Assembly (NCBI GenBank): GCA_001414485.1
Contig: LLEY01000055.1
Coordinates: 124,001-188,000 of the forward strand
Direction of reading: 5' to 3'
DNA length: 64,000 nt
Source: Calycina herbarum
Lineage: Eukaryota; Ascomycota; Leotiomycetes; Helotiales; Pezizellaceae
Positions 1,849 through 40,126 of the stretch are shown piece by piece. A program made the position numbers and the translations under genes. Numbering within the stretch: the first letter of the stretch is position 1; each line of letters begins with the position of its first letter. The notes below the pieces were generated by a model. That model was not told the origin of the DNA. It saw only the letters and a list, made by a program, of their open reading frames with translations, and searched no databases.

Positions 1849-4800
1849 TTAAGTCCTGGCCATCCCGCCATTATTCGCAAACCCCAGCTCAAGTGTTTCT
1901 CCCAAGAGAGCCCAACTTCTAGCCTCTTCTCCTCCACCAGCTCTAGCAACACCCCTCAGCCCACTAGCTACAAACCTTACAGATCTTTCAAACTCCGACT
2001 TCATGTCCCGGAGCGACTCAGAAAAAGTCATAACTCTTTCATTTTCAAGCATTGACATAGAAAAGATACTCAAATCGACATCAACTTCTTTGTCTTCGTC
2101 CTCACTTGAACTCTCATCTTTGAATCTCGGAGTTCTAGACCATTTCATGCTAGGTCTCGACTGGCGAGGTTTCTGTGGTGTATGCAAGCCCAGGCTGGCC
2201 ATCGACCTGTCCATCATATCCTGTTGTTGATCATGTGCCTCTTTACTTGCCAATGCATTAGCAGCCTGTGCATCTTCAAGATTGATCGCGAGATCGAGGG
2301 TTTTGAGAATGGTCTTGTGAATAAGCGCCAGTTTGCTGCCAAGTAAAGCTTGTCCAACTGTGGTCTTGATGTATGTGGAGTGAACATCGATCATGGTATC
2401 AATATCGACGGCTTCTTTCAAAGCCTGTCGCATCTTGAGTGATCCTGGTTCTAAGACAAGGCAAGTAATGTAATAGTAAAGTGTCTGAACAAACCATTGA
2501 AGTCCATTTCGCAATGAGTAGTACAAAGCGCGTTCATCAGAACTACTCGTGGTTGTAAGTAAATCCGTAATGAGCCTTTGTCGAGAGAGAATATGAGAGC
2601 TTCGTCGAAGTTGAAAGAGGAAAGTAAATACCCGTTGATACATAGCTATCGCCGTAGGAGTGATGATTATTTGTATGGGCCAGGGGAGGCGATATCTTAG
2701 CTCTATAACCGCCAAAACCTTGACAGTTTTCCGACATTTGCCAATATCCCGATTCTTTTGGGACAATGGCAGCACATTTGTTCGAAGACGATCAATATTG
2801 ACTGATGGCAATGCCCCGAGAGAACTTGAAAAAAGCTCAGTGAGGGTGTACCGGTCACTCCAGGATGTGTCGAGGGTGTCCAACTTATCGAAGAGGGGGT
2901 ATGTAAATGCTGAACTACAAGCACCATCAGCCATGAAATAAATCTGCGAAAGGGCTTCAAGGGAGGTGTGTAGTCCACAAGAATCAAACAATATTTTCCG
3001 AAGTTTTGTCGAAGCGTGTTGGTGTTTACTTTGAATCCAAGCGGCAATAGCCTCGTCGAATAATTCGTTGAAAGGGGCCAACTGAAGGGAAGCAGAACCG
3101 CAGACAGTTTCGAAGTCCAGCCTTGGTTCCATTTGCTTATCCAGGTCACTCATGGGAGAGAACTGGTTGAGTTGTTTGAGAACCACGACACTCTTTCCAG
3201 TCGTGAATATCTTGCTTGCGGCAGCCCGAAGGAATTTAGGAGCATGTAGAACACCATCTGGAGTCTGGCGAAGCTTAAAAAGAGATTGCCAAATCGAGGC
3301 CAAGTCGATTTCTCCCGTAGCTCCTGAAATAAAGAATACCTTATCACCTTTGCTTAATTCTCCTTCTTCCATCCAGACTCGGATAGGGCGCAGGTATACT
3401 TGGAAACACTCAAAGAATACTACCCCGAGGTATTCATACATTTCCATCTCGCCAACCATTTGTGAGACGCACGTCTCGTCGAAAAGTATCTCCAAGTATC
3501 GAAACGCATGTGCGTATGGCTCTGCTTCTACTTTTCTGACAATGGCAGAAAGCTTGACGAGAAAGTTCGCACGAGTTGCAATGTCCACCTGAACTCGGAC
3601 CAGGCTGACCACCAAATCAGCTTTCAGTTCGACAAATCTCGTTTGCATTTGATTCAGACGATGGTCGAAGTCGGCAAGTCTTCTCAAGACAGATCCCTGA
3701 AACACTTGGAGTAAAGGTAAGCTCAGAGACTTATTTGCCCAAGATCTCAAGTATTTCAAAATTGTGCCTTGTTCTGCAAATGATTGGATAAGCTTGTAGA
3801 ATGCGTCGTGAGAACAATGTTTCAGAGAATAGTTCTTGGATGGATTGATAACATTCGGAAATTGGGGTTGCGTTTCAAAGAGCGAAGTAGGCATTCCGGA
3901 TAGCATAAAGAGGACTGTGGATGATCTCAGAGTCAGTGTCGCCATTTCTGGGAGTATGTTTGAGGAAAAGGAGCACCAGAGGGTGTAGGTATTCGTGGCG
4001 AAGATCAGTATTTGAGTTCCTATTGTACGAACGCTCTGGGAGGATGACGAAACTGATTGTTCTAAACCATTTCGCACAACATAAGATATTGTGCGAGTTG
4101 GCCTCGAATAACCAGCAATTCTCCGAGATATTTCAGTACAATCTTTCCACTGACCGTCAGGAATGGCTACACCCACTGTGGTGGAGGAAACAGAGTAAAG
4201 GAGGAAAATCCGAGGAGGAACTATGTCTCAATCCCCCTGAAACAATATGAGAGAGGGAAAAAGAACTCGGAGAATTCACACCTTCTCGAATAGCTTGAAG
4301 CTCCGTCAGAGGCCTTTTCACCGTATCCAACTTCACTCCACCAACACTTGGGTCTTTCAACCAAAATTGTGCATTCCTGAGTTCCAATAAGCTTTCTCTG
4401 CTGGCCACTCCCACAATATAGTCTTCTGGTCGTCTCCCCGAGACTTCGTCCACGCTGGACTCGGTTGTCTCCTCCGTCAATTCGCTCCCGTCGCGGTCGC
4501 TGTCTCCAAACCCATCATCCGAACTCTCAGCAGTAAAATCCACATTCTTCCATATACGCTTTTCTCTCAAAAGCGGGTCCTCTGCCACAAGGTCTTTCCA
4601 TCTTAATGGGGGTCCGGTATTATCTGGTCCCTTCAGAAATTCCAAATCCTTAACCTTCGAGTTTATTAGGGGCCTGTCAGATAACTCCAACAGCAGGTGC
4701 AATATTTCTGGAGACCATTTCGATTGTGATTTCGTGATCTTGGCTACTCTTTCCTTGAGCGCATCAGCCAATTCGTCTTCATCGTAAACCCGAAACTTCT

Positions 4801-6855: not shown

Positions 6856-8788
6856 GGAACCAAAAATGAACTCGATGTATCCAGGTCTTTTTTTGGGCGA
6901 TTTGTAACACCAAATATTTACCTCTGGTGCCGGTATACTATTGTTTATGGAATTGGGGGAGTATTATATGACAAACGGACAGAATTACTCTAGCATTGGC
7001 GTGGCGTTCTGGGATTGGGAATGAGAAGGGTACGCTCTTCGTTGTAATATGATCTTTTTTCTCCCTGTGCCTATGTTTTCTCGCTTTTGATTCTAGATAG
7101 GTTTGAAAGAATGAGGTTATAAATAGATACATCTTCATAGAGTCAAATGTCTTACCCACATAATCAGATCGGGTACTTTTGCTGAAATCCTTGCCTTGTC
7201 CCTTTACCACCTCACATCGCGCTGCTCACAAACTCTCTTCACTTCTTTCGGTTTTCCGCTTGTAAGTTGTTCACATCACTTTACCAAAATACACTGGACA
7301 AATTGCTCGCCCGACAATCTCACGCGCCATGGAGGAAATCGAAGACAGTCTGTAGAGACAGCGCGTTTCAATCACACGCCTTAAGAAGGAAAAACCACAA
7401 ATCACCGACTAACACAATATGAAAAAGAGTATTCGCAAGTCATTCTGAATATTCAATGAGCAAGAGAGAGTACACTTGCTGCAATTCTTGTCTTTTGCCT
7501 TGTCATTTTATTACTTCCACTGACGCGTATAAAATCTCGTTTATTAAACTTCACTTGGGACCCGAGGTGTGAAGAAGGAAGGTGCGAGGGCCGCCTCAAG
7601 ACAGAATCGAGACCCAACTCACTTCACTTCGCTTCGTGTTGCAAAGAATGAAAACATTGTATCTTCACTTGCGTGACCTCACACACTCAAACAACACTAG
7701 ATGAATTGCAATTGAATACATTACTGCTCTCCCTAGCCAATCATTCATCGCGCAAAAAAGGCTAGGCAGCAAAAATTGAAAAAGAAGAAAAAAGACAAAG
7801 AGCCTCGGCGGCGAACACACCTCTGGACGCGCTCCAGTCAACAACACGCTCAACAAAACAAGGCCCAGAAAAAAACCAACAACCCTCTGCGCAACCAGGA
7901 AAGCTGTACAAAAAAAACAGCAAAAATTCCACACCCCGAAGGATGGCTGAGGACATAAACCAGACGAACTGAAAGTTTAATTTTTAAGCTTTTTCTCCTC
8001 GATCCATAGCGATATCAATCTGACCCGGGCTGTTGACCAGCTGTTTCTACCCCGCCAAGGTAGACCTAGATCCAAGTTTCAAGCACTCTTAGAGTTGACC
8101 CCTCTGACCGATGCACCACCGCGCCATGCCGGGCAAGAAACCTGATGATTGATGTATGCTGTTGTGCTACTTGGGAATATTAAATTTTCGGTAGAAGGTT
8201 GGGGGAATTGTGGGGTTGGGTGGGTCTTGGGGGTAGACGGGAGGCTGTATCAAAATTTCGTTGCGCACTAGCAACCACCAGAATCGAGGGGGTTGATGTA
8301 AATGTATCGAGAGCGTGGCTTTTGCTGGTGTTGGGAAGAGTTGAGAAAACTTGAGGGATTTGCCTGCCATTGTCTCACCAACCTAGATAAGTTATCTAAA
8401 ACGCACCTTCAATCCCAATTTCCAATGAAAGTCTGATCTTGAGCAGGACCCACTTTTGTTTTTGATAGCGGGGAGGAAAGAGCAACCCAACGACGAGTTG
8501 ACCCTCCATCCACACCTGGCAAGTCCAATGCTCTTGCCTCTGTAAACCCCTCGACAAGATGGAACTCCAGGGCAGCTCTTAGTACCATGGTCTGGCGGCG
8601 CACTTACTATTTTGAAAACCTTCAGGTTCTGTCAACCTCGCCTCTCCTTTCCATGGGAATCCAGTCTCCTCCATCGCCATCTCTTCGCCGAGTATTCTCA
8701 CCACATTCGTTATCCTGTTGCAAAACGCAAAACAGCCCTAATTCTTCAACATACTTACCTATTCTCTTTACTCGACCTTTCAAACGAG
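6856..8788. other. Intergenic region, no supported gene
   Basis: Nearly 2 kb between the mannosyltransferase and the aquaporin-like gene. Only short overlapping open frames occur on both strands, none with a recognisable domain. It contains an A/purine-rich stretch around 7755-7800 and a pyrimidine-rich stretch before 8789 that probably serves as leader/promoter of the channel gene. I checked for tRNA B-box sequences and found none convincing. Confidence 0.6.
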
Positions 8789-9933
8789 ATGGTGGCCCCA
8801 CGGGCTCCCACCATGAACATTCATAAATCCCCGACGGTCATCTCCAGAGTCGATCCGCTCAAGCACGCCTTTCGAGGCATTTTTGAGTCGCTCCCCGAAG
8901 GTGCGAAAGGCCATGTTGTCGCCGTCATTGGAGAGTTTATCGGCACATTCTGCTACTTCTTCTTCGCATTCGCAGGAGGTGAGAGCGGCGCCGCTTCGAC
9001 GAACAAGGCCACCGATCCAGTTTCGACGAAACCTTCGGGTTTGAGCCCAGCCCTTCTGCTTTATGTGGCCACCTCTGGAGGATTCTCTTTGGTTGTCAAT
9101 GCTTGGATCTTTTTTCGTGTTAGTGGTGGATTGTTCAACCCGTTAGTACGTACCGCATTCAATGCCACGCCCATCAATCCCTTACCTCATCCCAGAACTG
9201 ATCCTTCGCAGGTGTCTTTTGGCATGGCTCTTATCGGCGCAATTACGTGGGCTCGTTGTGCCATCCTCATTGCTACGCAAACAACCGCTTCCATAACAGC
9301 TACCTACGTGGTGGCCGCCTTGTTCAATGGCGGGTTGCACACAGAGACGACTCTCGGAAATGGAACGTCCCCAGCTCAAGGAGTGGTGATTGAGATGCTC
9401 TTGACGGCCCAATTGGTCTTCACCGTTTTCATGCTGGCAGCTGAGAAGCACGAAGCAACTTTTATCGCCCCAATCGGCATTGGCTTGTCATATTTCATTT
9501 CCCAGCTCGTTGGTAAGACCCGTGTATTTGCTCTGTGTCCCCGTCGATGCTAAGGTCGCTGGCAGGTTTCCAATGGACCGGCGCTTCTCTAAATCCAGTT
9601 CGCTCGTTAGCTCCTTGCATTGTAAATCGATCCTTCACCCACTACCACTGGATATACTGGGTTGGCCCAATTACTGGAACGATTCTTGCTGTGCTGATAT
9701 ATAAGCTGGTGAAAGCTTTGGAATACGAAACTGCACAAGGAGAGGAAAAGGGAGACGAGTATCAGCCTGTTCTTCCCAGAACCAACAGAAGACAGTCCTC
9801 GCTTCCATTGCCGAGTGTCCACTCAGTTGATGTCCCTTCTGCCGAGCCGAAAAAGGGGGCAGCACCACCACCACCACCACCAGCAGCACCAAAGAAACCT
9901 GGAGATGACATGCCAACTTGTTATGCGGATTGA
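8789..9933 (+). CDS. Aquaporin-like channel (MIP family)
   Basis: Three exons: 8789-9145, 9212-9512 and 9566-9933, about 341 aa. Intron 1 (66 nt) is a multiple of three without a stop, so it reads through as coding if not removed; removing it restores the MIP alignment. Visible helices include VVAVIGEFIGTFCYFFFAFA, SPALLLYVATSGGFSLVVNA and IYWVGPITGTILAVLIYKLV. The two pore motifs are SGGLFNPL (first box NPL instead of NPA) and WTGASLNPVRS (second box NPV, followed by the conserved pore Arg). The C-terminus is polar, with a run of seven prolines/alanines and a DDMPTCYAD end. An in-frame ATG at 8612 would add 59 aa of non-conserved sequence; I prefer 8789 (MVAPRAPTMNIHKS), and 8813 is also possible. 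It conducts water or small solutes; substrate unknown. Confidence 0.83.
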
Positions 9934-15445: not shown

Positions 15446-16826
15446 TTACAGCTTCCCAGCCTTCTCATAGATTTCCTTCTCCCACAACCCATACAAACTA
15501 TTCATCGTCGCATCCCCAGGAGGCAAAACCTGACTCCCCATAATCCCACTCTTCCCACCCACCCGATCAACAAACCAAAGTAAGTTTGGATATCCTCCCC
15601 AATTCATTGACCCTGCCCTCCTTCCTCCAGGAATAGCACCAAGGAATATCATTCCCCCAAGTCCATAAGTAACCCCAACCGCCGGATCGAAACTCCCAAA
15701 CGCAGCATTCATCAAGGGATTCTCGAAGGTTTTTTGTATGACCTTTTTAGCTGACTCCCCTAGGTGATCGGTTTGGAACATGAAGTCGATTGTTTCTGTT
15801 TTGAGAAGTTTCCCGTCCGAGGCACAGAGACTGTGTAGCAATTTTTGGAAATCTGCAGGAGGGCCGTAGGAGCCTGCACCGCCGGTGTTGAAGGACATTT
15901 CTTTGTTGAAACCTGGGTCAGAGGTGTATTCTACGATTCCTTCTGGGTCAGAGCGAATACTCATGTCGGCCAATTTCTTCAAAGCAACTGGGTCTTTGGT
16001 GATGTCGTATGTTATGCTTGTTACTCCTAGGGGAATCCAGATATTTTGCTTGGTGTACTCGTCCAGTGTTTGGTTTGTGAGTCTTTCGACCATGAGACCT
16101 GCCCAGTCTAGTCCACAACCATACTCCCACCTCGTGCCTGGTTCGTATGTGAGGGGTCCTTTGTACACTCTTTCAAATGAGTCTGTGCTTGAGATCCATA
16201 AAGTAGCAGAGTAATCATCGACTACCTTACGATATTTTGCGAGCAAAGGGCCTGGAATATCATCAGTACCGGACTAACAAAATGAATATGGAAAGGTGCT
16301 TACTGAAAATGGCATATGATAATCCAGCAGAGTGAGAAAGCAGCATTCTAATCAAAACCAAAATTAGCAAAACCCTAAAGCTTTACCAAAGACTTAGTAC
16401 ACACCTAAGAGTAATAGCCGTAGTGTTCTCCACCAAGATAGGTTTCTCGGTTCCCTCCTCAAATCCCTTCAATATCTGCACTCCCTTGAGTTCATGCAAA
16501 ATCTCACTAACATCATCATCAATACCAATCTTCCCCTGTTCAACTTGCTGCATTGCAGCGACCGTAGTAGCTATCTTTGTACAGCTGGCCAACCACATTG
16601 GAGTATCAAGGGTCATAGGATCTGGTTCTGACAAATCTTTGAGAGATCGTCTTCCGAATGCTTTCTCATACTTGTATTTTCCTGGGAAGAATTCTCAGCA
16701 ACTTTGTATCACTCAGTGAGAGAAGAGAATCATACCCTCAGCATCCCCACCAGCAAACACAACACCAGGAACCTTTCTCTCTTCGCACAACTTCTCTATC
16801 TTCGTATCAAAAGCTAGGGATGCCAT
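15446..16826 (-). CDS. Class C beta-lactamase-related serine hydrolase
   Basis: Four exons on the minus strand: 16826-16736, 16681-16405, 16347-16304 (only 44 nt) and 16251-15446, about 405 aa. After splicing the catalytic order of the family is clear: SxxK as S63-C-T-K66 in MWLASCTKIA, then ITLRMLLSHSAGLSYAIF across two introns, and the Tyr motif around Y181 (TRWEYGCGLDWAGLMVERL). The C-terminal part has GLGGMIFLGAIPGGRRAGSM and NLLWFVDRVGGKSGIMGSQV. This fold includes EstB esterases and transesterases of polyketide pathways such as LovD; the acyl substrate cannot be predicted. No signal peptide is seen, so it is probably intracellular. There is no biosynthetic gene beside it. Confidence 0.88.
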
Positions 16827-19374: not shown

Positions 19375-21390
19375 ATGGCCGACTTTTACTATGTTTCCCG
19401 AGTGGAAGCAACAGAAGAGCTCTCCCAAAGTGGCAAACCACCATTGGACTTTAGCCACCACTTCTCGCGCGTAGTTAAACAGCGCCATGCTAGTAGTATC
19501 AAAGACTTCTACAAGTATTTCCAAATCCCGGGTATTGGGAATCTAGCTGGCGGTAAGCTTATCCAAATCTAATTCCAACCAACAATCCATATAATATCAT
19601 CCTGCATTACCAACCAATTCGATTCCCGAGACACTTGCTAACGCATTGCAGGACTTCCCAACGCTGGATTCTTCCCATACGATACCCTCGAAGCTCAAAT
19701 TGCCCAACCAAAACGCTTCGAGCCTACCCCCAACGATCCGAATGACCCCTCCAAGCTTGCGAAGAAGTTGGCCGGCACCTCGCTGAGCAAGAATAATGAG
19801 GCGACTGCAGCTTCACATCTGACAGTCCCACACGCATCTTCGATCGGCAATCCGCTGCAGAAGATCGATTTAACAACTGCTTTACAGTATGGACAGGCAC
19901 AAGGATACCCACCACTTTACTCCTTCCTCAGACAATTCTCGCGCGAGAATCTACACCCGAATGTGCCATATGCCGGCGGGCTGGAGATTATCCTCAGCAA
20001 TGGCAATACAGATGGATTTGCAAAGACGATCGATGCTCTGAGCAACATCTGGGACGAGGACCGCGATTGGATTCGCGAAAGAGAGGGAGTCCTCGTGGAG
20101 GAATTTGCCTATATGAATGCAGTCCAGACTTGCCGACCAAGAGGATTGAACATTGTACCTGTGAAGCTCGATTTAGAGGGCATGACACCATATGGGAAAG
20201 GTGGATTGGAAGACGTTCTTGAGAATTGGGATCTTTCAAAGGGCAAAAGACCACATTTGATGTATACCGTTACGTGAGTACTTCTAATATTGATAAATGG
20301 GGGTTTACTAATCATCACCAGAATCGGTCAAAATCCTACGAGTGGAACACTTTCTATACAAAGACGCAAAGAACTTTATGCTATTTGTAGCAAGTATGAT
20401 GTTATGATTATTGAAGATGATCCATATTGGTATCTTCAATTCCCATCTGCAATTGGGAAGGAAGCCGAAGCTCGTGGTACCAAGGTGGCACCAAAGCAAG
20501 AGCCACACAAGTTTGAAAAATCAACCGGATATGAGTATCTTGACAGTCTTGTCCCTTCATACTTAAACTTTGATTACGATGGCCGAGTCATTCGTCTCGA
20601 CACATTTTCCAAAACCGTTGCTCCTGGTTGTCGATTAGGTTGGATCACAGCACAACCAGCGATCATCGAACGTATCCTTCGAATCACCGAATCATCTACC
20701 CAGCAGCCATCTGGATTTGTTCAATCAATGGTCGCAGAGCTCCTCATGGGGCCCCAACCAGCAGCTGGGGAATTCGCAAAGAAGTCGAAGGCCGAACAGC
20801 TAGTCTTCACAGGTTGGCAAACTGACGGATGGGTCCGCTGGCTCGAAGGCCTACGAGGCGCCTACGAACGAAGAATGAACAGAATGAGCACCATCCTCGA
20901 AGCCGGCCGCTACCAACTAAAACAAGGAACCTTCTACCAACAAACAAAATCCGGCACACCCATCAAAGGCGAAGAAAGTGACTGGGCCGTCATCTCCAAA
21001 ACCAAAATGTATTCCTTCGATTGGCCACGAGCCGGAATGTTCATCTGGATCCACATGCACTTCGAAACCCACCCTCTCTGGAATAAAGTCCCAGGACCAA
21101 AACTCGCGGAAGCAGTCTGGATTTTCCTTACGAGAAAACCGTATTTGACACTTGCTTGTCCGGGGGCGGTGTTCAGTCCTACGCCTGAGATTTTAGCGGA
21201 GAAGGGATGGCAATATTTTAGGCTGTGCTTTGCGGCTGTGGAGGAGGTGGATATTGAGCGTTGTTCGAATGGCTTTGCAAATGGGGTGAAAGAATTCTGG
21301 TCTATCAAGGATGTTGGTGATTTGCCTAGTATTGGGGAGGGGGTTGAGGGGGAGGAGGTCTTGAATATGGGGATGAATTGGGCTTGCTAG
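19375..21390 (+). CDS. PLP-dependent aminotransferase, aromatic/kynurenine type (ARO8-like)
   Basis: Three exons: 19375-19552, 19652-20273 and 20322-21390, about 622 aa. Both introns have clear CTAAC/CTAAT branch points and AG acceptors. It is a fold-type I class I/II aminotransferase: NPTSGT around residue 271 (substrate/PLP loop), MIIEDDPYWYLQF (PLP-ring Asp and Tyr), and the Schiff-base lysine at about residue 364 in DTFSKTVAPGCRLGWITAQP, followed by the C-terminal Arg in GWQYFRLCFAAVEEVDIER. The N-terminal DFSHHFSRVVKQRHASSIKD and the long insert between the PLP Asp and Lys are typical of fungal Aro8/2-aminoadipate-like enzymes. Probable role: transamination in aromatic amino acid, kynurenine or 2-aminoadipate metabolism. 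The exact substrate is open. Confidence 0.9.
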
Positions 21391-22634: not shown

Positions 22635-24808
22635 TCATCCTGTGGTCTGGCCGACCAGCCGGCGATGTGGCAGAGACCCTAAGTGATTGGGATTAGAGGG
22701 CGAAGTGACTTCGGAATTGACAGCTGGTGAACCCGGCGAAGGAGTAGAGTGATCGTCGTCATCCTTGCTCTTATTGAAACCAGTTGAGCCTGGGCAGCTA
22801 AAGCAGTCGCCAAACGCAGAATTAGGAGCTGATGTACCTGGCGAGTCGGGGGTTACAGGTCGTCGTGTGGTGGTGGCTGTTGGCGATTTGAAGTCCGGCG
22901 AGAATGGACAGGTAACATTGAAAGTTGGCGCGAAAGGACTGGTGTCTTTGGAGCTGGGTGCAAACGGACTCGTGTGGTTGGAGAAAGGATTTTGTTGAAC
23001 TTCTGCTTTGGTCAAAAAATTATTGAACATGTTATCGTCCAGCACGAGCGATTTCACCAGGTCCCGTATATCCTCGGTCTCTTCTTCTCCGCCACCTATT
23101 AAATCAGGAATGTGTTTTCCGTTGAAAAGTGGAGTGTTGGATTGTCGACGTACAACGCTTGCTCGCCTGACATTTTCCAGGAATTTTCCCTGGTCTTTCA
23201 CCGCTAGGACGCTCATTTGTCGTAAGCGCTGGTAGCCAGTTGGGTTCTTGTTGGCCCATTTTACTAGATCTGCGCACATCTCTTCTAATCCGTGCGTGGC
23301 TTTCCAACCCAGCTCCTTGAAAGCTTTATATGGGTTGGCTGTCACAGAACCTAAGTCGCCAGGTCTTCTTTCGCTCTGCTCGAAGGGAATTTCCATACCA
23401 GTCTCTGCTGCGAATGCGGTGATGATTTCTAGGACGGAATAGCCGGTGCCGGTACCGAGATTGTAGACGTGGTAGTTTCCTGCGTCATCTACGAATCCCT
23501 CGTTGGCATTGGAAGGCACGGCTGATGGTTCCACGAGCTTGTTGATCGCAGCGACATGTCCTTTAGCGAGATCGACGACATGTATGAAGTCGCGAACTCC
23601 ACTTCCATCTTTGGTGTTGTAATCGCTCCCGTAGACAGCCACCTTGCTTCTTCGACGTTGATATGTTTGTAAAACGACTGGCATCAGATTTGAGGGGACT
23701 CCGTTGGGATCCTCTCCGATGAGTCCGGAGGGATGACATCCTGTAGGGTTGAAGTATCTCAGAGCTATTGCTTGCACTTTGTTGTTTGCCATGCACCAGT
23801 CGTCGAGAATTTCCTCATCCATCCATTTCGTGCGACCGTAGGGGTTTGTGAGCAGACCACCTCCATTTCCTCGACCGCCACTGCGCACTGAATCTTCGGA
23901 GATGTAGTTACCGTTACCAGAACCATAGACGACGGCTGATGACGAGAAGACAATGTTCTTGACTTCGAATTCATCGAGAACACTTAAAATATTCAGTAGT
24001 CCACCGACGTTGGTCATGTAGTATTCCAAAGGGATTTTCGCAGATTCTCCCACAGCTTTCAATGCGGCGAAATGTATGACATGGGTGATCTTTCCGGAAG
24101 CAGGCCTGTGGCGGGAGGCTTCCAATGGAGTAGCTGTCTTGTGACTTTGGAAAGCAAGAGAAGCGTTTCGATAAGACTGTCTGGATGCAAGAATCTGGGT
24201 TATCTCTAATTTCGAATGACGGTCGGTGTTATAGGCTTCCAGAATATCGGCCATCTCCCCCCGGTTGCGGATATCGGCCTTGATGAAATGTAGTTGAGGA
24301 TATCTATCGATGGACTCGCCCGCTTTAGGAGGGAGAAAGGAGAGGTAGTATTCTCTTGCAAGGTAATACACTCGTTGGAGAGCTTCGATGTTTGAGTTGC
24401 AGAGATTGTCTACTACGACCACAGACCAGCCTGCTATGAGGAGTTCCAGGGTTGTGTGAGAGCCGATATAGCCACAGCCGCCGGTGACCTGTTTTCGAGA
24501 TCTCGGAGTCAGTTTACTTCCACGAGAAAAACCAGAGAGTAAGAAATCTGGGCTTTACACCTCCTCCTCTATTACTTTAGACGATATGGGACAAGTACAA
24601 AGAGTCTTTGAGCACGTTTAGGAGATTGAAGAATTCGAGTTTCTGATTCTCCCAAAAGTTCTCAAACAATATCTGCAACTGTCCCACAAGTTCCGTAAAT
24701 TCTTCAATATGCATTGAAACAGGAAAAATGCTGACTTACCATGACAACTGGATGGCCTTTGAGCTGGCTCCTCGCTTGGGAGACAATAATTCGATTTTGC
24801 GTATGCAT
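22635..24808 (-). CDS. UDP-glucose 4-epimerase with long C-terminal tail
   Basis: Two exons on the minus strand, 24808-24740 and 24488-22635, about 640 aa, joined by a 251-nt phase-0 intron. Exon 2 opens with the NAD-binding motif VTGGCGYIGSHTTLELL (GxxGxxG). The catalytic triad of the SDR fold is seen in VFSSSAVVYGS and NPYGRTKWMDEE (Tyr about 240, Lys about 244). FNPTGCHPSG, GVRDFIHVVDLAKGHV and YHVYNLGTGTGYSVLEI are standard GalE blocks. It interconverts UDP-glucose and UDP-galactose (Leloir pathway, wall galactans). The mutarotase domain of yeast Gal10 is absent; instead about 200 residues of low-complexity Pro/Ser/Thr sequence follow, with NPF and repeated SPFAP motifs. The N-terminal exon (MHTQNRIIVSQARSQLKGHP) is unusual for GalE but has good splice sites. 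Confidence 0.88.
24625..24715 (-). repeat. Degenerate dispersed-repeat copy inside the epimerase intron
   Basis: GTTTCTGATTCTCCCAAAAG followed by AACAATATCTGCAACTGTCC resembles 35700-35790 and 33750-33805, both in other introns or intergenic DNA. Confidence 0.4.
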
Positions 24809-25679
24809 TTTATCGTATTGTATGTAAGTATCTATTGAAAGGAGTTTTTTCTGTTCTATTTTCTCTCCTGACAGATATCCGGATGGGGAAGCCTTATACC
24901 TCTTCCATGAATCTTCGAGAAGAGGTTGAGCTGAAAGACGCCTGTATGGCGACGTACCAGCCAGGCCCAGACTCCAGACGTCTCCATGTGCAGTGAGGCT
25001 GAAATCGAGCTGTGGATTTCTGGCTATCGTCGTTCGTCATGGAAAACGTCGTCTTCATAGTAAATACTGCTAGTAGACATCTTTACCTAATTGGGTCAAA
25101 GCTATGTTGTGGTTCTTCTCGCCAATTATAACTTGTTGGGCATTAGATTTTGGAGGCTCCGGTTTCTAGCTTCTCCTTGAACCACGATTTGTATTTACCA
25201 AAGACAATGGGGAAACCGACTACCCTCTGTGCTATTTTGGAAGTTATTCTAGCTTCAATGGTTAGATATCGGTTTGTAGACGGCTCTTGACGTTGCCCAT
25301 GTGGGGCTTTTTTGCACTTTCAGGGTTAGCATTTCCACGTGGATGGGAGGAGGGAATGACGTGGAGTGATTGATGTATAACTGTATCTTGAGTGTAGTAC
25401 AGATACATCATTGGGTCTCACAACCTCGTATTTCCTTTCACCGTCAAAGTAGGTAGCGAAGACGAAATTGTCAGCTACCAACGGGCGATATGACGACGCC
25501 CACCAAGGACGCCACCGAAGTTCACCCACTGGCTCCCGACCCCACCAACTAACTATTCTATTTCCCTCCAGGAATTTATGTCTCCTCCCCTCATCTGCAA
25601 CACAATTCTCATTCGCAGTTCACGAACTCTCCTTTCCAAATCGCACCCCCACTATCATCAGACCAGATCCCCAGCAAGC
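24809..25679. promoter_or_regulatory. Divergent promoter region between epimerase and MTHFR genes
   Basis: An 870-bp region between two outward-facing starts. It contains a CACGTG core (CCACGTGG near 25336), about 340 bp before the MTHFR start; CACGTG is the binding core of Cbf1-type bHLH regulators of methionine genes in yeast. Linking it to this gene is inference only. Confidence 0.35.
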
Positions 25680-27650
25680 ATGGAAATGGAGAAAATCACC
25701 GAAAAGATAGCTGCCCTCCCCCAGGGTAGCACCTACTTCTCCCTCGAATTCTTCCCCCCCAAAACAGCTATGGGATCCTCCAACCTCCGCGCCCGTCTCG
25801 ACCGTATGTCCCGCGCCCTCCGTCCCCTCTTCGTAACCGTTACCTGGGGTGCTGGAGGTTCCACCGCGGATAAGAGTTTGGAATTGGCAGAGTTGTGTCA
25901 GAGGGAATTGGGATTGACAACTTGTTTGCATCTCACTTGCACAAACATGAGTCGGGAATTGGTCGATCGGGCGTTGGAGGACGCAAAGGCGTTGGGAATT
26001 AGGAATATTCTTGCCCTGAGAGGGGATCCGCCGAGGAGTGAGGAGTATGCAGATGGGAAGGGTACAACGGAGGGAGAGGAGTTTGTTTGGGCGGTGGACT
26101 TGGTGAGGTATATCAGGAAGGTTTATGGGGATTATTTCTGCATTGGAGTTGCTGCGTATCCCGAGGGACATGCGGATGAGGGTCACCCTGAGGGCCAGAG
26201 TTTGGAGCATGATTTACCATACTTGGTGGAGAAGACGAAGGCGGGGGCGGATTTCATTATGACGCAGTTGTTTTTCGATGTCGAGGCTTATGATTCCTTT
26301 GAGAAGAGGTTGAGGGAGCATGAGAGTGGGACCTTCAAGACGATTCCCATTATCCCTGGTATGATGCCGATTCAGAGCTACCAAATGATCAAACGAACGA
26401 CGAAATTGAGCCATGCGAGGTTACCAAAGGATATCCTTGAGAGGTTGGAGCCCATAAAGGGAGACGATGAGAGTGTTAAGAAATGCGGAGTCGACATACT
26501 CACGGAAATCGTCACACATATCAAAGAGGAGAAATCCCCTGGTCCAAGAGGTTTCCACTTCTACACTCTCAATCTCGAAAAAGCAGTGTCATTTATCCTC
26601 GAACGCACGAACCTGATACCCTCCGTTCCTTCCGATACCGAAACCGCAATCCTCGATGCTCCCCTCCAAACCCTAAGTATCAATGGCTCCCTACGCCGCC
26701 CTAGTTCAATCGGTTCAGACCCTCACAACCGAATTATTATCAACGAACCCCACACCTCGAACCCCGACTTCGAAACCACCGCCTCAGAAGCTGGTATCGC
26801 CGCCCGCGCAATCAATACCCGCGCCAACACCCTTGCAATCTCAGAAGGCGAAGGCTCTCTCGGCCGCGAAGCAACCTGGGATGACTTCCCCAACGGCCGA
26901 TGGGGAGACGCCCGATCCCCCGCCTACGGAGAAATAGATGGCTACGGTGTCTCCCTCCACATGTCCGTAAACCAAGCCATAAAACTCTGGGAATACCCCG
27001 TGACCACAAGCGACATAACATCTCTCTTCATTCGACACATTGAAGGCTCCATCCCCTCCCTTCCCTGGAGCGAAGAAGGCCTCAATGAGGAAACCAACAC
27101 TATAAAACCCCAGTTGTTAGCTTTAAATAAGAAAGGCTGGTGGACAGTAGCTTCGCAACCAGCTGTTAACGGAGTCCGTTCTTCAGACCCTATCTTCGGA
27201 TGGGGACCTAAGAATGGTTTCGTCTTCCAGAAAGCATTCGTAGAACTCTTCATTCCATCCTCCGCCTTCAAAACACTCCACGCAAAACTCACATCCCCCG
27301 CTCTCGCACCACTAGTCTCATTCTACGCCTCCAATGCTGCGGGAGAACTCCTTCAATCCTCTGACCCTAACAATCTTAATAAAGAAGAATCCTCTACCAA
27401 TGCAGTAACATGGGGAGCCTTTCCTGGAAAGGAGATTATCACTCCTACTATCATTGAGGAAGTGAGTTTCCGTGCTTGGGCAGAGGAGGCTTTTGGTATT
27501 TGGGGTGAGTGGGAGAGGGTTTATGGAAGGGGGAGCGAGAGTCAGAAGTTACTTGAACAAGTCAGGGGGGATGTGTGGTTGGTTAATGTTATTCATCATG
27601 GGTTTGTGGAGAAGGAGGGGTTGTGGGATCTGTTGCTTGATGAGAACTGA
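25680..27650 (+). CDS. Methylenetetrahydrofolate reductase
   Basis: Intronless, 656 aa, the normal eukaryotic length. It reduces 5,10-methylene-THF to 5-methyl-THF for methionine synthesis. The N-terminal catalytic FAD TIM barrel (about 1-310) shows TYFSLEFFPPKTAMGSSN, FVTVTWGAGGSTADKSLELA, CLHLTCTNMS, IRNILALRGDPPRSEEY, FCIGVAAYPEGHADEGHPEG and ADFIMTQLFFDVEAYDSFEK. A variable linker follows. The C-terminal regulatory domain has DDFPNGRWGDARSPAYGEID, PAVNGVRSSDPIFGWGPKNG, STNAVTWGAFPGKEIITPTI and DVWLVNVIHHGFVEKEGLWD. The SLEFFPPK and WGAGGSTA forms look closer to the second fungal paralogue (yeast Met12 type) than to Met13, without certainty. I chose MEMEKITEKI as the start; the upstream in-frame extension to 25578 is not conserved in character. 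Confidence 0.93.
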   Translation: MEMEKITEKIAALPQGSTYFSLEFFPPKTAMGSSNLRARLDRMSRALRPLFVTVTWGAGGSTADKSLELAELCQRELGLTTCLHLTCTNMSRELVDRALEDAKALGIRNILALRGDPPRSEEYADGKGTTEGEEFVWAVDLVRYIRKVYGDYFCIGVAAYPEGHADEGHPEGQSLEHDLPYLVEKTKAGADFIMTQLFFDVEAYDSFEKRLREHESGTFKTIPIIPGMMPIQSYQMIKRTTKLSHARLPKDILERLEPIKGDDESVKKCGVDILTEIVTHIKEEKSPGPRGFHFYTLNLEKAVSFILERTNLIPSVPSDTETAILDAPLQTLSINGSLRRPSSIGSDPHNRIIINEPHTSNPDFETTASEAGIAARAINTRANTLAISEGEGSLGREATWDDFPNGRWGDARSPAYGEIDGYGVSLHMSVNQAIKLWEYPVTTSDITSLFIRHIEGSIPSLPWSEEGLNEETNTIKPQLLALNKKGWWTVASQPAVNGVRSSDPIFGWGPKNGFVFQKAFVELFIPSSAFKTLHAKLTSPALAPLVSFYASNAAGELLQSSDPNNLNKEESSTNAVTWGAFPGKEIITPTIIEEVSFRAWAEEAFGIWGEWERVYGRGSESQKLLEQVRGDVWLVNVIHHGFVEKEGLWDLLLDEN

Positions 27651-34594: not shown

Positions 34595-37500
34595 CTAAAC
34601 GTCCTCGTAATCTTCTCCTGCGTAGTAGATCTCATCCTCTTCATCCTGGACGCCAGCAGTGTATCCATTTCCGGTTTGCGAGTAGGCGTTGAAGCCATTG
34701 CCGTGACCATTTCCAACGCCATTGCCCGTATCAGTGTGCATGTTGGGCTCCTCCTTAACCACGGTCATGGGAACATGCTCATCATCCTCGGTATCCGACT
34801 CAGCATCCGACTCGACGTAGCTGGAAATCTTCGACTTCGCGGTGCGGGCAGGCTTGGTGACACGACCGGAGAGAACTTTGTTGTTTGCGGACTTGCTTGG
34901 AGACTCATCAACCTCAGAATCATCCTCCTCCTCATCGGCTGCGGCCTTCTTCTTTTTTGGGGAACCTTTCTTTGCAGAGCCTCGAGGAGCACGTGGGGCT
35001 GTCTTCTTAGCAGGAGTGACTGGACCATCTGCACCACCATCTCCTCCTGCCTCTCTGGGGATGGCTGTGGAAAAGTTAGCATATGATTTTTTGAATAGTT
35101 GGGTGGTTGCGAGTGGGGAGTAGACAAAAGGAAATTTGACGAAAAGGAATAAAGCAATTCAAGGGATCTAGAAGAGCAGTCCAATTTTAGACTTTTCAAC
35201 ACCTTTTCCCTCGCGCATCGCAATCGCGGTCTTCTTGATCTCCCGCATTCTATGGTCAATAGAAAATTTTGAGGATCCGTCTTGACAGTAAGAGGCGATG
35301 ACTGAATTCATGTTAATACAATTTACACCAGCTCGTTCCCTCTCAAAATGAAATAGCACTTGACGTAATGAAATGAAAATAAAAATGTTCGCTACAACCT
35401 GCGGGACCTGCACCAATTCTCAATGTTCGTGGGTCACCATTCGCAGCGACCACTTGACGCAATGATTTGGCATTCCTAATAATCTCACGAAATTGGAAAC
35501 CAACACCGCCGCTGCTGGAATCGGGTCCAAAATGCAAACTAATAGCTTTAAATTCGTTAATATTGGGATCCCAAAGTGTTTGTGTAAAAAAGAAAAATAA
35601 ATATGAAAGAAGTTTGGTCATTGCTCTTCGGCACCCTCATTTTATTGTGCGAGATGTTCTCGGGTAATCGTTGCCATTACCCGAGAAGGCTTGGGACAAT
35701 TGAGAAAGTAAGTTTCTCATTCTCCCAAATCTTCTCGAAAAATGCTTTCAATTGACCGAGACGATTTCGTACAATGCTGGGTGACGGAGAGCAATGTCGA
35801 AATCTCTTATGAAACAAAAAAGAAGAAAAACCAGCTCATTCTAACCATTCTTGCCAGTAACATCGACGTCTTTTGGGTCGAGACCCGCTGCCAATAGGGC
35901 AAGTTGACGCTTTGCAAGAGGCCTAATGCGATCCGTAAACTGAAACCTCAGCCCGTTGGGGGTTGAATCTGAGCCGAATTTTTCACTAAGGTCTTTTGTC
36001 AAGTCAATAGGAAGAACGAAGTAAGCTGAAAAACGAAAGGAAAGGTGCTCAAAATGAAGTATAGAAAGAGAAATTCGAAACAGGCTAACACTTCTTTGCA
36101 CTGCCACCTAGAGTCAGAGAGAGGTCCTTGCAGTCCTTTCCCGCAGCTCGCGCAGCCGAAATCTTCTGAGCATTTGCTTTGAGAGGGACTGCGAATTGCC
36201 ACATCAATGAACTTTTTGACGTATCAGAGCCCATATTCAAGGCAATTTCTAGAACAAGTTAATATTATGTTCATGAAAACAAAAACGTAATAATAAAGTG
36301 CAATTTGAGAAAATTCCCGCGAGAAGAAAATAGCCAAAAAACGATCTCTAACTTTTTGACAATAGGAAACTGCGTATTTTGCAGAGGAACGAGAAATGGA
36401 AAAGGAATTTGCAACAACCATTTTCGCCCTTTACACCACTGGTGACATCAACAGTTTTTGGGTCAATTCCCACCTTGACGCATTCCCGTAGAAGCTTGGC
36501 CGGAGGCTTGACATAGCGATTGCAGCGAGTCTCTATTGCGATCTATGATGTATCTGAACCATAGTGCTTTGAGATCTCTTTTGCGCTCATTAGTAAATCC
36601 TCCAGACTCGAAGAAATGTAAAAACTGAACAGAAGGAAAACGTGTTTGATGTTTGGGGAAAATAATTTCAGCAGTTCTCTGACCATTGCCTTGTCCAGCT
36701 AAACTCCACATTGCCAAAGATCCAGGGTTTGTGCCTGCGTCTAAAGCATTGCGAATAGCTTTAACATTAGGTTTGATATTTTTGTCAAAAAGCGCATAAT
36801 TGCAATACGAGTAGTTGAATCGTTGAAGCATCTAGATATCTCTTCACACATATCAATAAGAGATCCAGAAATGATCCAAGACAAAAGGGAAGTGTGTAAT
36901 GTGTAGGTGCAAAGCAAAAGACAGAATAAAATGAAATCAGTCTGACCAACGCCTTTTCCTGCAAGAGAAAAGAGTGTTACTGATGCAGGATTTTGGCCAG
37001 CCTCAACACATGCTCTAAGAGCATCAACATTGTGCTTGATGTTCTTCGACCATACGTTCATTAAAGCTTTCTTTGTTGTGTCGTCATCAAAATATTTAAT
37101 GATTTCTAGGTAAGAATCAATACAAGGTGCTCGGTAGTTGGAAGAGAACCTAAATACTGGGCGAAGAACAGAAGGAAAACGTGTAATAAGGCAGAAGAAA
37201 ATTTGAAAAAGAACATGCAAGCAGAGGTGCCCGAGAGGCCTAGCAGGGGAACGGCAGCTGGATCCCCCCCAGCCGCTAATATTGTAGAAATGGTTTTAAC
37301 GTTCGGTCGAATTTGTCGGTTGTAGATGTTGAGAAGAGAAGATGGGGTACAGGTAGAACCATAGTTTTTCGAGATTTCTAGCAGGAAAATCAATAAGAAG
37401 AAGTTGACTTCAAGTATACTTGAGTTGCCAGCTTGCTAGGGCAGTTCAAGTAATTGTCCCAAACACTCAGACCAATTTGAAATATGAACCCAGATCCTTT

Positions 37501-38284
37501 GGAACAACCAACTTCAATTGTCCCAAAGCAACTAGGTTAATGTCTTGAAATTATGTTAAAGGGAATGGGAAATGTGAAGGCTGGATGTGCTGGTGGTTTT
37601 GAAAAGAAAAGAAAAAGTTCTGACGTTGACGACAAGCAACCTCCCCCGATGTATCTCCAATATTGAGAGTAATCGGGTCAATTCCTTGGGCAGTGGCATT
37701 GTTAATTAAAATAATGTCGCGCTTAATTCGTCGAAATCTGTTTTCCAAAGCTGATTTGGTACAATCTCCCCCGAATTTTGATGCTATAACTGAAGGAAAA
37801 TCAACAGGGGAACAAACGAGGCCAGATCTAGAAATGTTAAAGCAATGACAAAAGGAAAACTTGATCAGTGCCAGGGAGTGCAGAGTGGAGTTTTGTTGCT
37901 ACCTTGGGCCTTTTTCGGCTTAGCAGCATTCTCATTTAGCTCGACGGTGAACGGGTCGATACCAGCGGCCACAGCATTTTGAAGTTGTGTCGCGAACTTG
38001 TTGATCTTGTTCATCTGGTTCCAAATTGTCTTGTAGTGTGCTCCGTTCCCCCAAAATTGAGCCACTTCTGTAAGATGCAATCAGGATGAACCCCATAATA
38101 GACAAAAACAAGTAAAGGGAAAACAAAGTAATGAAAGAGAGACATAAAAAAGCAAGAAACTGAAATTCAGAAGAGGAGGACATTTTTCAAACGTACCGGC
38201 ATAATCGAGCTTCATTCCCGGATTGGCCGCAACGATGGCGCTGAGGAGGCGGACGGCACTCTCGTATGTCTTCCAGTTAGGCAT
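34595..38284 (-). CDS. Tandem exon-array gene: repeated ~50-residue domain, nuclear-type C-terminus
   Basis: Minus strand. Exon 1 (38284-38197) encodes MPNWKTYESAVRLLSAIVAA plus GMKLDYA, with a CCACCATG start. The last exon (35064-34595) encodes a basic/acidic tail (PRGSAKKGSPKKKKAAAD, EEEDDSEVDESP, ending DEIYYAGEDYEDV), suggesting a nuclear protein. Between them lie ten homologous exons (U1-U10), each flanked by phase-1 introns and coding for one unit of the type [E]I[AS]..[FY]G.DST...L...F..I+..A+.L...AAG.DP..V. If U1, U4, U7, U8, U9 and U10 are joined, the frame is continuous (about 471 aa, using the 147-nt U8 and the weak U7 donor). Exon 1 + U10 + tail alone also stays in frame (218 aa). 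U2, U3, U5 and U6 are damaged. The unit resembles small helical DNA-binding-like repeats of unnamed fungal proteins; function unknown. Whether it is one spliced gene or partly pseudogenised cannot be settled here. Confidence 0.6.
35203..35301 (-). repeat. Array exon U10 (99 nt, intact, short)
   Basis: Encodes VIASYCQDGSSKFSIDHRMR then EIKKTAIAMREGK. It lacks the C-terminal third present in U1-U9. Acceptor TTCAG, donor G|GTGTTG. It may represent the ancestral last repeat. Confidence 0.7.
35399..35545 (-). repeat. Array exon U9 (147 nt, intact)
   Basis: Encodes AISLHFGPDSSSGGVGFQFR and VVAANGDPRTLRIGAGPA. Acceptor AAAG after TTAACG, donor G|GTTGTA. Confidence 0.68.
35680..35790 (+). repeat. 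Degenerate dispersed-repeat copy in the U8-U9 intron
   Basis: GGGACAATTGAGAAAGTAAG and TTTCTCATTCTCCCAAATCT, also resembling 24640-24700. It sits in the longest intron of the array (300 nt). Confidence 0.4.
35846..36025 (-). repeat. Array exon U8 (180 or 147 nt, intact)
   Basis: Encodes DLSEKFGSDSTPNGLRFQFT and ALLAAGLDPKDVDVTGKN. Two in-frame acceptors, TTTTTCAG at 36026 or AAAAG at 35993; the shorter form equals the 147 nt of U9. Donor G|GTTAGA. Confidence 0.7.
36108..36248 (-). repeat. Array exon U7 (141 nt, open; weak donor)
   Basis: Encodes EIALNMGSDTSKSSLMWQFA and AARAAGKDCKDLSLTL. Acceptor TTCTAG is good. The phase-1 donor would be G|GTGGCA; a downstream GTGTTA donor would break symmetry. 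Confidence 0.6.
36437..36577 (-). repeat. Array exon U6 (141 nt, in-frame TAG)
   Basis: Encodes EISKHYGSDTS, then TAG at 36545-36543, then IAIETRCNRYVKPPAKLLRE and GIDPKTVDVTS. Length and phase (donor G|GTGTAA) are intact, so only the nonsense codon blocks it. Confidence 0.7.
36684..36841 (-). repeat. Array exon U5 (158 nt, frameshifted)
   Basis: Aligned to U4 it lacks one nucleotide: the first part reads EISRCFNDSTTRIAIMRF and the second reads NIKPNVKAIRNALDAGTNPG in the next frame. The donor G|GTCAGA is the same as in U4. Including it would shift the frame. Confidence 0.7.
36947..37105 (-). repeat. Array exon U4 (159 nt, intact)
   Basis: Encodes EIIKYFDDDTTKKALMNVWS and VEAGQNPASVTLFSLAGKGV. 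Acceptor TTACCTAG, donor G|GTCAGA, symmetric phase 1. Confidence 0.72.
37231..37377 (-). repeat. Array exon U3 (147 nt, donor GC instead of GT)
   Basis: Encodes EISKNYGSTCTPSSLLNIYN and TILAAGGDPAAVPLLGLSG. At the expected phase-1 boundary the sequence is G|GCACCT, a GC donor at best. Confidence 0.55.
37436..37515 (+). repeat. Dispersed MITE-like repeat copy in the U2-U3 intron
   Basis: CCAATTTGAAATATGAACCC then TTTGGAACAACCAAC matches the right half of the copy at 29722-29808. This intron (263 nt) is more than twice the array average. Confidence 0.5.
37641..37789 (-). repeat. Array exon U2 (149 nt with the only GT donor)
   Basis: Encodes VIASKFGGDCTKSALENRFR and NATAQGIDPITLNIGDTSGE. The nearest donor GAG|GTTGCT is in phase 0, so splicing to U3 would break the frame. 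Acceptor TTTCCTTCAG is good. Confidence 0.6.
37903..38067 (-). repeat. Array exon U1 (165 nt, intact)
   Basis: Encodes EVAQFWGNGAHYKTIWNQMN and QNAVAAGIDPFTVELNENAA. Acceptor TTACAG, donor G|GTAGCA, phase 1 at both ends. Confidence 0.75.
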
Positions 38285-40126
38285 GGTGGGCGACTAGACA
38301 ATGGCTGGTTAGCTATGACAACTTTGATAGAGTAACCGCGAAGTTGAAAGAGTAGAAATGAAGAAGACCGAACCCGAACCACATAACATCCGAGCTGTGC
38401 CAGGAAGAGGCTCGCACTGATGCCGAGGTAAAGATCGGGAAAAAGATGATTAGGGGAGGGAAGAGAAATGACATGATATGCTGGAAAAATGAGGTGGCGG
38501 GAAAATAAAAATTGAGGTGAGTCCACCGCCCGCCGAAGCTGAGGTTGCGACGGGAGAGCTCCTCAGCTTCAGCTGCAGAGCAAAAGATGAGATCGAAGAG
38601 ATTCGCAAAGGTTGACCTTTGGGCGCGAAGCTGAGGAAGCGAGGAAATTGAACCTCAACTTTGGGGTAGGAGGAAATGAATAGAGATGGTGGGTAGGATA
38701 GAGGGAAGAAGGAAGAGGATTGCATACCGGACTGGGTTGTTGTTGGTTTAGGTTTTGTGGTTGTTGTCGCGAGGTGACGGTGAGGCTGCACTCTGAAGTC
38801 AGAATGATTGTGCGCAAGGAAGAGATCGAAGAGATCGAAAGATGATATGAGAATGTTGATGCGTACCAAGTATGGAACGTTGTATCGTCCTTTGTTATGT
38901 TCAAGAGTGTGGGTGGTTGTGTTGAGTCGAGGTGGGCGAAAAGTTTGTGTTGTTGGTGTAAGAGGAAGAGGAGGAGAGGGAGTGGAGGAGGGATTAAGTA
39001 CTCGAGGCGGGAGGCGGTTGAGAAGAAAGGAAGGCTGGAGAATAACGGAGAGAAGATGCGGGGAACGAGTGGTCAAGCTCAAAGGAAGGAGCGCTTGCGT
39101 GGACTCGACGTTCTTATTTGTGCTCTCAGTGAGCAAACAGATAATTAAGCAGGGGCTTTTTCCCACCTCAACCACCCGATTCTTTACCTAAAAGCTTCAT
39201 TCAACTTCTAGAAATATTCAATTTTCTCGCAGAATAGACCGATACTATTTACGAGTTGGTTGAATGGATGATTAATGTTCTGCCCTTCTCCAAGTCAATT
39301 GAGGTTCATCTTGAGGTTCACTCGAATTCACGAAGCCCCACGCAACTACGCGAGGCCACCCCCTGGACGCCTCTTGGCGCCTCTTCACCCGCATTGTTTC
39401 TCCTCTTCTCATGTTCAAGCCTATCAGTTTCACCATTCAAACGTACCAACACGCAGGTCTCCATATGGTGCCTTTTCTCTTGGTCGATAATAAAAGCAGC
39501 AGTAAATAGAAGGATGGTGGAGGAATATTGACGTTTTACAACCAGCGCTTTACGGAGTACACCATCTTTCGATATTTCACCAAAGAATTGAAATCATTGT
39601 TTCAAAGCATTTAGGTTAATGTTTGAAAATGTTCCAACTCCTTGGGGCAATTCCTCGAATTTTCTCTAAAGAGCTGGAACAACGAGACCCAGACTGGCAG
39701 GTACGAGGCTGAAGTATTTCCTGCCGCTTTTAATGTGATCTCTTTTTCGCAAAGTCTCCTTTTCTCCTTCTGGTGTCTCAAACAGATCCACGGCCCGCTA
39801 CATACTGCATGCACTGCTCGAGGCCTTGAGGAAACGAATCACAACAGCTATGTGGCATTAATGTCGACCCAGACATGGGATGAGACCTGCTCACGATGCT
39901 GATCCGACGAACGAAAACAAACAATTCAAGGAAATCGCCAAGTGTCCAAGTGTTTGCTATGAAAGTGGCGTTCTCACCCCGAGAACTGGAAAGGAGGGGC
40001 AAGACTGAATCAATGTACTTTATAGTAATTGAAAACGATTTACTCCTTCTACCCCACAAAAGTCCGCGAACAATTGGTAATAATATCTATCATACGCAGC
40101 TATATCATTTTGTACAAGGTCTATCA
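38285..40126. other. Intergenic region upstream of the exon-array gene
   Basis: It contains a hairpin-forming pair GAAGCTGAGG (38535-38544) and CCTCAGCTTC (38561-38570), a third direct copy at 38627-38636, and the dispersed repeat at 39594-39682. Long open frames on both strands at 38450-39191 are low-complexity (Ser/Pro/Thr or Arg/Gly) and probably represent a pyrimidine-rich leader. Confidence 0.5.
39594..39682 (-). mobile_element. Dispersed MITE-like repeat copy
   Basis: On the plus strand CATTGTTTCAAAGCATTTAGG ... GAGCTGGAACAACGAGA is the reverse-complement match to the copy at 29722-29808, with the same termini and TCTCG flank. Confidence 0.55.

Follow-up and report, generated by a model that had tools for sequence, protein, structure and literature searches.

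A tandem array of ten homologous exons in Calycina herbarum and its probable use, one cassette per mRNA, in a conserved gene of the Leotiomycetes

Results

A ten-cassette array of homologous exons in C. herbarum

The 64,000-nucleotide (nt) stretch of Calycina herbarum DNA analyzed here (hereafter the window) harbors on its minus strand, running from 38284 to 34595, a gene composed of a fixed first exon (E1), ten homologous cassette exons (E2–E11) and a last exon (E12) that is Lys-rich and then acidic. We consider it probable that this gene is conserved in the Leotiomycetes and encodes a small, probably nuclear helix-turn-helix (HTH)-like protein that obtains its second half-domain through alternative splicing, with a single cassette in each mRNA. 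The ten-cassette array of duplicated exons with symmetric phase-1 introns is itself confirmed by homology to cassettes of related fungi, by the exon model and by branch points, as an earlier note on this DNA had proposed.

Relatives of the gene were found with window queries and with profiles built from the first hits; two of the searches scored the best 7,997 candidates, and 121 proteins were fetched, designated here by P-numbers and drawn from NCBI or non-NCBI (jgi/lgn/ena) sources, with all comparisons made at the protein level. The homologues among the best candidates are hypothetical proteins. A hidden Markov model (HMM) was seeded with fifteen Botrytis and Hyaloscypha cassettes and then enlarged from the fetched relatives alone, so that it included no window sequence. 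It recovers each of the ten window cassettes, in their correct order and strand (35216–38068, minus; best E 7.8e-19), with seven of them matched in one piece at E 6.4e-10 or better. Outside the gene, the same HMM found nothing convincing in the six-frame translation of the 64 kb (best E = 3.0). Splice signals point the same way: a YTRAY branch point lies 14–17 nt ahead of the acceptor in 10 of the 11 introns, compared to 339 of the 9,501 AGs of the window (P ~4e-14), the lone intron without such a YTRAY being the 64-nt intron between E8 and E9. Protein searches of the 68.8 Mb assembly for paralogues matched at E <= 1e-3 only this locus among the best candidates scored.

The exon model, hand-built from both strands, also bears out the fixed first exon and the Lys-rich/acidic last exon of the earlier note. 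E1 (38197..38284, minus) comprises 29 codons plus one base, ends at the donor G|GTACGT in phase 1, would encode helix 1 of the protein, and shares 77% identity over 30 amino acids (aa) with Botrytis P0009. It is followed by E2 (37903..38067; 165 nt; 54.2 bits with the HMM), whose best matches are the first cassettes of relatives, and by E3 (37625..37789; 59.0 bits), which is 165 nt long with the donor C|GTCAGA or 159 nt with C|GTCAAC, and which shares 80% identity over 51 aa with the second cassette of Venustampulla. E4 (37219..37377; 159 nt; 48.2 bits) has no GT donor, only T|GCATGT. After E5 (36947..37105; 159 nt; 50.6 bits) come two cassettes that are likely non-productive and that both have an AAG acceptor: the frame-shifted E6 (36684..36841; 158 nt), which the HMM matches in two pieces lying in different frames (E 9.5e-6 and 0.37), and E7 (36419..36577; 159 nt), with an in-frame TAG flanked by its two HMM pieces (E 3.3e-10 and 0.047). 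E8 (36090..36248; 159 nt; 58.8 bits) and E10 (35399..35545; 147 nt; 36.5 bits; AAG acceptor) match cassettes of relatives, and E9 (35846..36025; 180 nt; 65.0 bits), which lies between them, shares 74% identity over 42 aa with Hymenoscyphus fraxineus P0072. The short-type E11 (35203..35301; 99 nt) is weak on its own (E 0.061), its best matches being the cassettes listed last for Venustampulla and Hymenoscyphus. All of these exons lie on the minus strand, as does E12 (34595..35064), which encodes the Lys-rich and then acidic tail and the stop codon and shares 47% identity over 161 aa with P0072/P0073. Among the named species listed, Hymenoscyphus fraxineus/albidus is thus the closest to the window tail; P0005 and P0007 are closer still.

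Nine of the ten cassettes are of similar size (147–180 nt, the remaining one being the 99-nt E11), all ten are matched by one profile, E11 weakly, and the introns of the array range from 64 to 300 nt. The earlier note had counted six cassette lengths as multiples of three with plausible GT donors; in the model, with its boundaries in phase 1, nine of the ten lengths are multiples of three, the exception being the 158 nt of E6, and E4 lacks a GT donor. Phase 1 is accordingly kept on both sides of nine cassettes, with the frame broken by E6 and with the donor of E4 being GC only. The companion claim, that cassettes can be freely skipped or included, holds for most of them and not for E6 (frame-shifted), E7 (in-frame TAG) or E4 (no GT donor).

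Products of related genes carry zero or one middle cassette

Six array-family proteins from non-NCBI sources run uninterrupted from E1 to the tail: P0011, P0019, P0075, P0078, P0080 and P0081. A regular expression found four of them together with P0101, which was excluded as a single-cassette type, and P0078 and P0081, whose tails lack the motif of the expression, were included on the basis of their sequences. Because the longest contigs of these six proteins span 990–2,026 bases, compared to 3.7 kb from E1 to E12 in the window, the proteins are most simply spliced cDNA products; this argument is weaker for P0075, whose gene is Pseudogymnoascus-like and has few cassettes. P0092 (no E1; one short-type cassette, a stub and a tail) and the unspliced fragments P0005, P0063 and P0082 stand, like P0101, outside this cDNA-like set. 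Within it, P0011 has no middle cassette, P0080 and P0081 have none and retain a half-domain encoded in the last exon, and P0019, P0075 and P0078 have one each; none of the six has two or more.

The pair P0078 and P0081 is the most informative. These proteins, from contigs of 2,026 and 1,930 bases respectively, are identical over 29 N-terminal and 150 C-terminal residues and differ in their middles. The middle of P0078 consists of a cassette sharing 82% identity with the fifth of nine cassettes in Diplocarpon coronariae P0040, followed by a short stub, indicating that a mid-array cassette is joined directly to E1 and to the last exon, whereas the middle of P0081 consists of the stub and 24 further residues that complete the half-domain. 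Judged from these sequences, P0078 and P0081 are most simply read as two alternatively spliced products of one gene. P0078 lacks the 24 residues found in P0081, with all that follows them being the same in both proteins, and in this respect the segment resembles an exitron, a protein-coding stretch of an exon that splicing can remove; the likeness is seen in proteins alone, and differs from the case of the window, from whose last exon the 24-residue segment is apparently missing.

Annotated NCBI proteins include similar forms. One cassette is present in Sclerotinia nivalis P0006 and Cadophora gregata P0071, in both cases of the mid-array type of relatives, and in Pseudogymnoascus verrucosus P0062; none is present in Botrytis cinerea B05.10 P0020 and Diplocarpon P0021, nor in P. 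destructans P0077, named 'variant', which keeps the last half-domain. The earlier note had suggested that the middle units could vary in number or identity: their identity does differ between products in relatives, but their number is zero or one in all six cDNA-like proteins.

Cassette order is conserved among relatives

Comparison with 38 proteins hand-picked from the 121 reveals that cassettes stand in the same order in window and relatives for 309 of 344 ordered pairs (chance 50%), several of these proteins being closely related and the pairs therefore not independent. In Cudoniella, which has 11 cassettes, order is kept in 35 of 36 pairs. Identity averages 0.49 within a cassette type and 0.26 between types, different types in one genome sharing about 26%; since types were assigned by similarity, this contrast is partly circular, and we prefer order as evidence. 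Most cassettes match counterparts in other genera, the least clear being E5 (four genera only). Together, order and cross-genus matches indicate that most cassettes are old and separately identifiable, with E5 again the least clear. The named array-bearing relatives are Leotiomycetes, the lineage of Hymenoscyphus having been checked by look-up, and the presence of the array in many of them argues that it is old.

Single-cassette relatives, namely P0091/P0094 of the lichen fungus Xanthoria and P0022 of the Dothideomycete Tothia, are alike in beginning with an E1-like stretch, carrying one half-domain and ending in a basic tail, and differ in that no array is seen in them. In these proteins, as in the unspliced relative fragments P0082, P0083 and P0114, the last half-domain is continuous with the tail. 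The simplest history suggested by these sequences is that the array arose through upstream duplication of the half-domain in an old last exon, and that this last-exon half-domain was later lost in the window species and in Hymenoscyphus (P0072, P0073). By eye, the intron that follows helix 1 in P0116 and P0108, both of the single-cassette type, apparently sits several codons further upstream and in phase 0; the phase-1 intron bordering the array may thus be new to the Leotiomycetes.

A cassette resembles half of an HTH-like unit

To relate exon borders to the fold of the protein, we examined structural predictions of two relatives. The AlphaFold model of P0078, built on 35 sequences, has helices at residues 7–20, 28–36 and 41–64, with the border between E1 and the cassette at residue 29/30, between helices 1 and 2; its predicted local distance difference test (pLDDT) scores are 63–91 per ten-residue block over residues 1–70 and lower elsewhere. 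The model of Botrytis P0008, which has five cassettes, shows each later cassette as a short and a long helix without an equivalent of the long helix 1, and gives weak support, since its confidence is low throughout (mean 59). According to these models, each cassette probably supplies one half of a three-helix HTH-like unit, with E1 completing it. The ~50-residue domain that the earlier note assigned to each exon is thus a genuine repeated, homologous unit, but in the P0078 model it resembles half of a three-helix unit and not a free-standing domain. This half-domain layout makes one cassette per protein likelier than a variable number of domains.

Comparison with known families gives a candidate affinity. 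P0080, in which E1 is joined to the last half-domain, resembles the Pfam profile Myb_DNA-bind_8 (PF22980) across the junction (E 0.0016; profile positions 4–46 of 50), with a score below the gathering threshold, and 5 of 35 family members match this profile at E <= 1. A Pfam scan of the family proteins returned nothing above threshold, and the spliced models of the window itself gave no Myb match and sub-threshold matches only, such as NUP50 in the tail (E 0.063). A sequence search of the PDB gave no HTH match; its best hit was syntaxin, at E 0.14 or worse, which we take as coiled-coil noise. On the models, the predicted HTH-like protein possibly binds DNA, and the Lys-rich/acidic tail is consistent with a nuclear location.

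Two introns share a gene-specific word

The earlier note had reported an identical sequence in two introns, and this is borne out: the 19-nt word GAACAGAAGGAAAACGTGT occurs twice in the 68.8 Mb assembly, both times in this gene. In the sense orientation it reads ACACGTTTTCCTTCTGTTC, and it lies on the minus strand at 37166..37184 in the intron between E4 and E5, starting at intron base 35, and at 36627..36645 in the intron between E6 and E7, starting at intron base 39. In 500 randomised intron sets, the longest shared stretch was 16 bases. A related 12-base word, TTTTCCTTTTGT, lies in a similar place in the intron between E2 and E3 (37848..37859, minus), so that the 12-base word starts at intron bases 44 (E2–E3), 40 (E4–E5) and 44 (E6–E7). 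Written as ACARAAGGAAAA, it has 76 occurrences in the assembly, compared to 86 for a reversed control, with three in these introns, all on one strand. The degenerate motif TTYCCYTYTG has all five of its window occurrences inside introns of this gene, but was picked after viewing the introns; counting the exact 19-mer gives a cleaner test.

The introns are by eye otherwise dissimilar around the 19-nt word, which makes it look like an element that was retained, not like the trace of a recent duplication. The word is hence an island, and is insufficient by itself as the sign of joint exon and intron duplication that the earlier note had seen in it. As a guess from sequence, the CU-rich word may take part in regulating exon choice. 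Its strongest predicted pairing partner lies in the last exon (-21.0 kcal/mol, compared to -19.6 for the best of 30 shuffles), a marginal and post hoc result that we do not use.

Damaged cassettes, inserted repeats and genomic context

Seven cassettes (E2, E3, E5 and E8–E11) are open, with GT donors and the correct phase. In E4, a GC (T|GCATGT) stands at exactly the modal length, where sibling cassettes carry their GT donor. With the donors chosen here, junction stop codons arise in only 4 of the 66 possible forward joins, all from E4: its GC donor, if used, would create a stop with E5, E6, E7 or E8, and none with E9–E12. AAG acceptors are found at E6, E7 and E10, and the damage in E6 or E7 could be an assembly error. 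By eye, an alternative AG at ~36533 in E7, just past the in-frame stop, would keep phase 1 and lose helix 2 of the cassette.

Dispersed repeats lie in two introns: a MITE-like (miniature inverted-repeat transposable element) repeat between E9 and E10 (35607..35776, unstranded), with at least 44 further match rows in the assembly, and a second repeat between E3 and E4 (37428..37550, unstranded), with at least 40, a few of these rows representing both strands of one place. Both repeats are partly palindromic and MITE-type in appearance.

The neighborhood is ordinary for fungal genes. Of ten open reading frames (ORFs) tested, seven match a family, at 719-1744, 1849-4176, 8612-9553, 15446-16246, 20290-21390, 22635-24422 and 25578-27650 (FAD-binding, gamma-tubulin complex, MIP, beta-lactamase-type, aminotransferase, NAD epimerase and MTHFR), and three do not. 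Upstream of E1, a 241-codon open frame (38450-39175, minus) has no Pfam match and is probably a 5' leader or a chance frame, and an Rfam search of the window returned no match.

Proposed and rival modes of cassette use

The phase-1 joins allow E1 to be spliced to any intact cassette, and any such cassette to the tail. Under the arrangement we favor, E1 would give helix 1, the cassette would give helix 2, the long helix 3 and a short extension, and the last exon would give the basic/acidic tail. The usual mRNA would then comprise E1, a single cassette and the tail, encoding one complete unit with its helix 3 set by the cassette; skipping of all cassettes would lead, in relatives, to use of the last-exon half-domain, or else to a tail protein without a complete unit. 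For the window species, we infer splicing of these exons, their choice one at a time and cassette-specific targets.

A less likely arrangement, and the one closest to the earlier note, is combinatorial skipping, in which any number of cassettes would be included to give a variable count of half-domain repeats. The 62 forward joins that create no stop would permit it, and several annotated proteins running from E1 to the tail contain 6–12 cassettes. It is hard to reconcile, however, with the absence of two or more middle cassettes from all six cDNA-like proteins, given that the long-query search spanned such lengths (best 7,997 candidates), with the later cassettes having no helix 1 in the models, and with the stops met when window E4 is joined through its GC donor to E5–E8.

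It is improbable, and somewhat more so, that the array is a decaying relic in which functional mRNA of the window species would consist only of E1 and E12, or of E1, E2 or E3, and E12, the remaining cassettes being pseudo-exons. The three damaged cassettes of ten, the several AAG acceptors and the repeats inserted in two introns fit this idea, as does the skipping of all cassettes in the annotations P0020 and P0021; in contrast, the seven intact cassettes have kept their frames, GT donors and phase, and most of them still match other genera, E5 being the least clear. We regard as very improbable a constitutive array, in which all cassettes would normally be included to yield a repeat protein and short forms would be minor or wrong models, since, in spite of long models in several genomes such as P0029 (854 aa) and P0034 (852 aa), full inclusion here gives no single open frame as assembled (E6 frameshift, E7 stop, E4 without a GT donor) and P0078/P0081 indicate skipping in a relative.

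Several points weigh against the use of one cassette per mRNA, or against the conserved HTH-like protein that goes with it. The array in C. herbarum is described here at the DNA level, and the cDNA-like set amounts to six proteins, whose cDNA status we infer from short contigs and an open frame; other annotated proteins with E1 and a tail hold 6–12 cassettes (12 in P0034, 11 in P0029). Cassette order is weaker in Coleophoma (9 of 15 pairs) and in D. coronariae (11 of 15). The Myb_DNA-bind_8 score of P0080 is 18.2 bits, under the 27-bit gathering score. With the P0078 model, Foldseek gave no match at E <= 0.001 and no HTH match, and VIA-align gave no HTH match among the four chains covered; a missing structural match says little here, because the model is of low confidence outside residues 1–70. 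Intron lengths (64–300 nt), junction stops (4 of 66) and a simple docking-site scan disclosed no mechanism enforcing choice of one cassette at a time, and Dscam-style docking-site RNA pairing was rejected: windows of the first and last introns paired with the other introns reached a best sum of -114.8, compared to the -134.7 reached among 40 shuffles. Lastly, the array may be decaying in the window species, three of its cassettes being damaged.

Discussion

Arrays of mutually exclusive exons are well known in animals. In Dscam, tandem homologous exons each encode part of a domain that is completed by a constant region. The Dscam-like layout that the earlier note proposed for a fungal gene is borne out, in that the window array similarly consists of tandem homologous exons of near-equal length and the same phase, set between constant exons and each encoding part of a domain. 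It differs from Dscam in being fungal, in encoding a small HTH-like protein and not a receptor, in that no docking-site pairing was found, and in that exclusive choice is here a proposal based on relatives' products and the half-domain layout; the relatives differ further in having an additional alternative inside the last exon.

PMC3228551 describes three criteria for predicting mutually exclusive exons, which the window array fits except at its damaged copies. For fungi, PMC6176087 reports mutually exclusive exons to be nearly absent in the human-pathogenic species surveyed, while a Verticillium study (PMC5294800) lists mutually exclusive exon events and validates some exon skipping. In the titles and abstract openings covered, neither this gene nor any similar array in fungi was mentioned.

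We put forward tentatively, at somewhat short of even confidence, the broader proposal that across a whole fungal class one gene gives rise to as many as a dozen or so alternative DNA-binding proteins through the choice of a single half-domain exon per mRNA, the ancestral last-exon half-domain being spliced out whenever a cassette is used. This would be a Dscam-type choice exercised on a regulator, and the gene-specific CU-rich word ~40 nt downstream of the donor might steer it.

Cassette choice may explain the discordant models of the Botrytis gene, which measure 186 aa in B. cinerea B05.10, 309 in T4 and 701 in B. fragariae. The array would also offer a small, culturable system for the study of exon choice, of evolution by cassette gain and loss, and of their effect on a regulator. 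If true, an ancient array of up to roughly twelve exons in conserved order within one fungal gene would change the picture of splicing in fungi.

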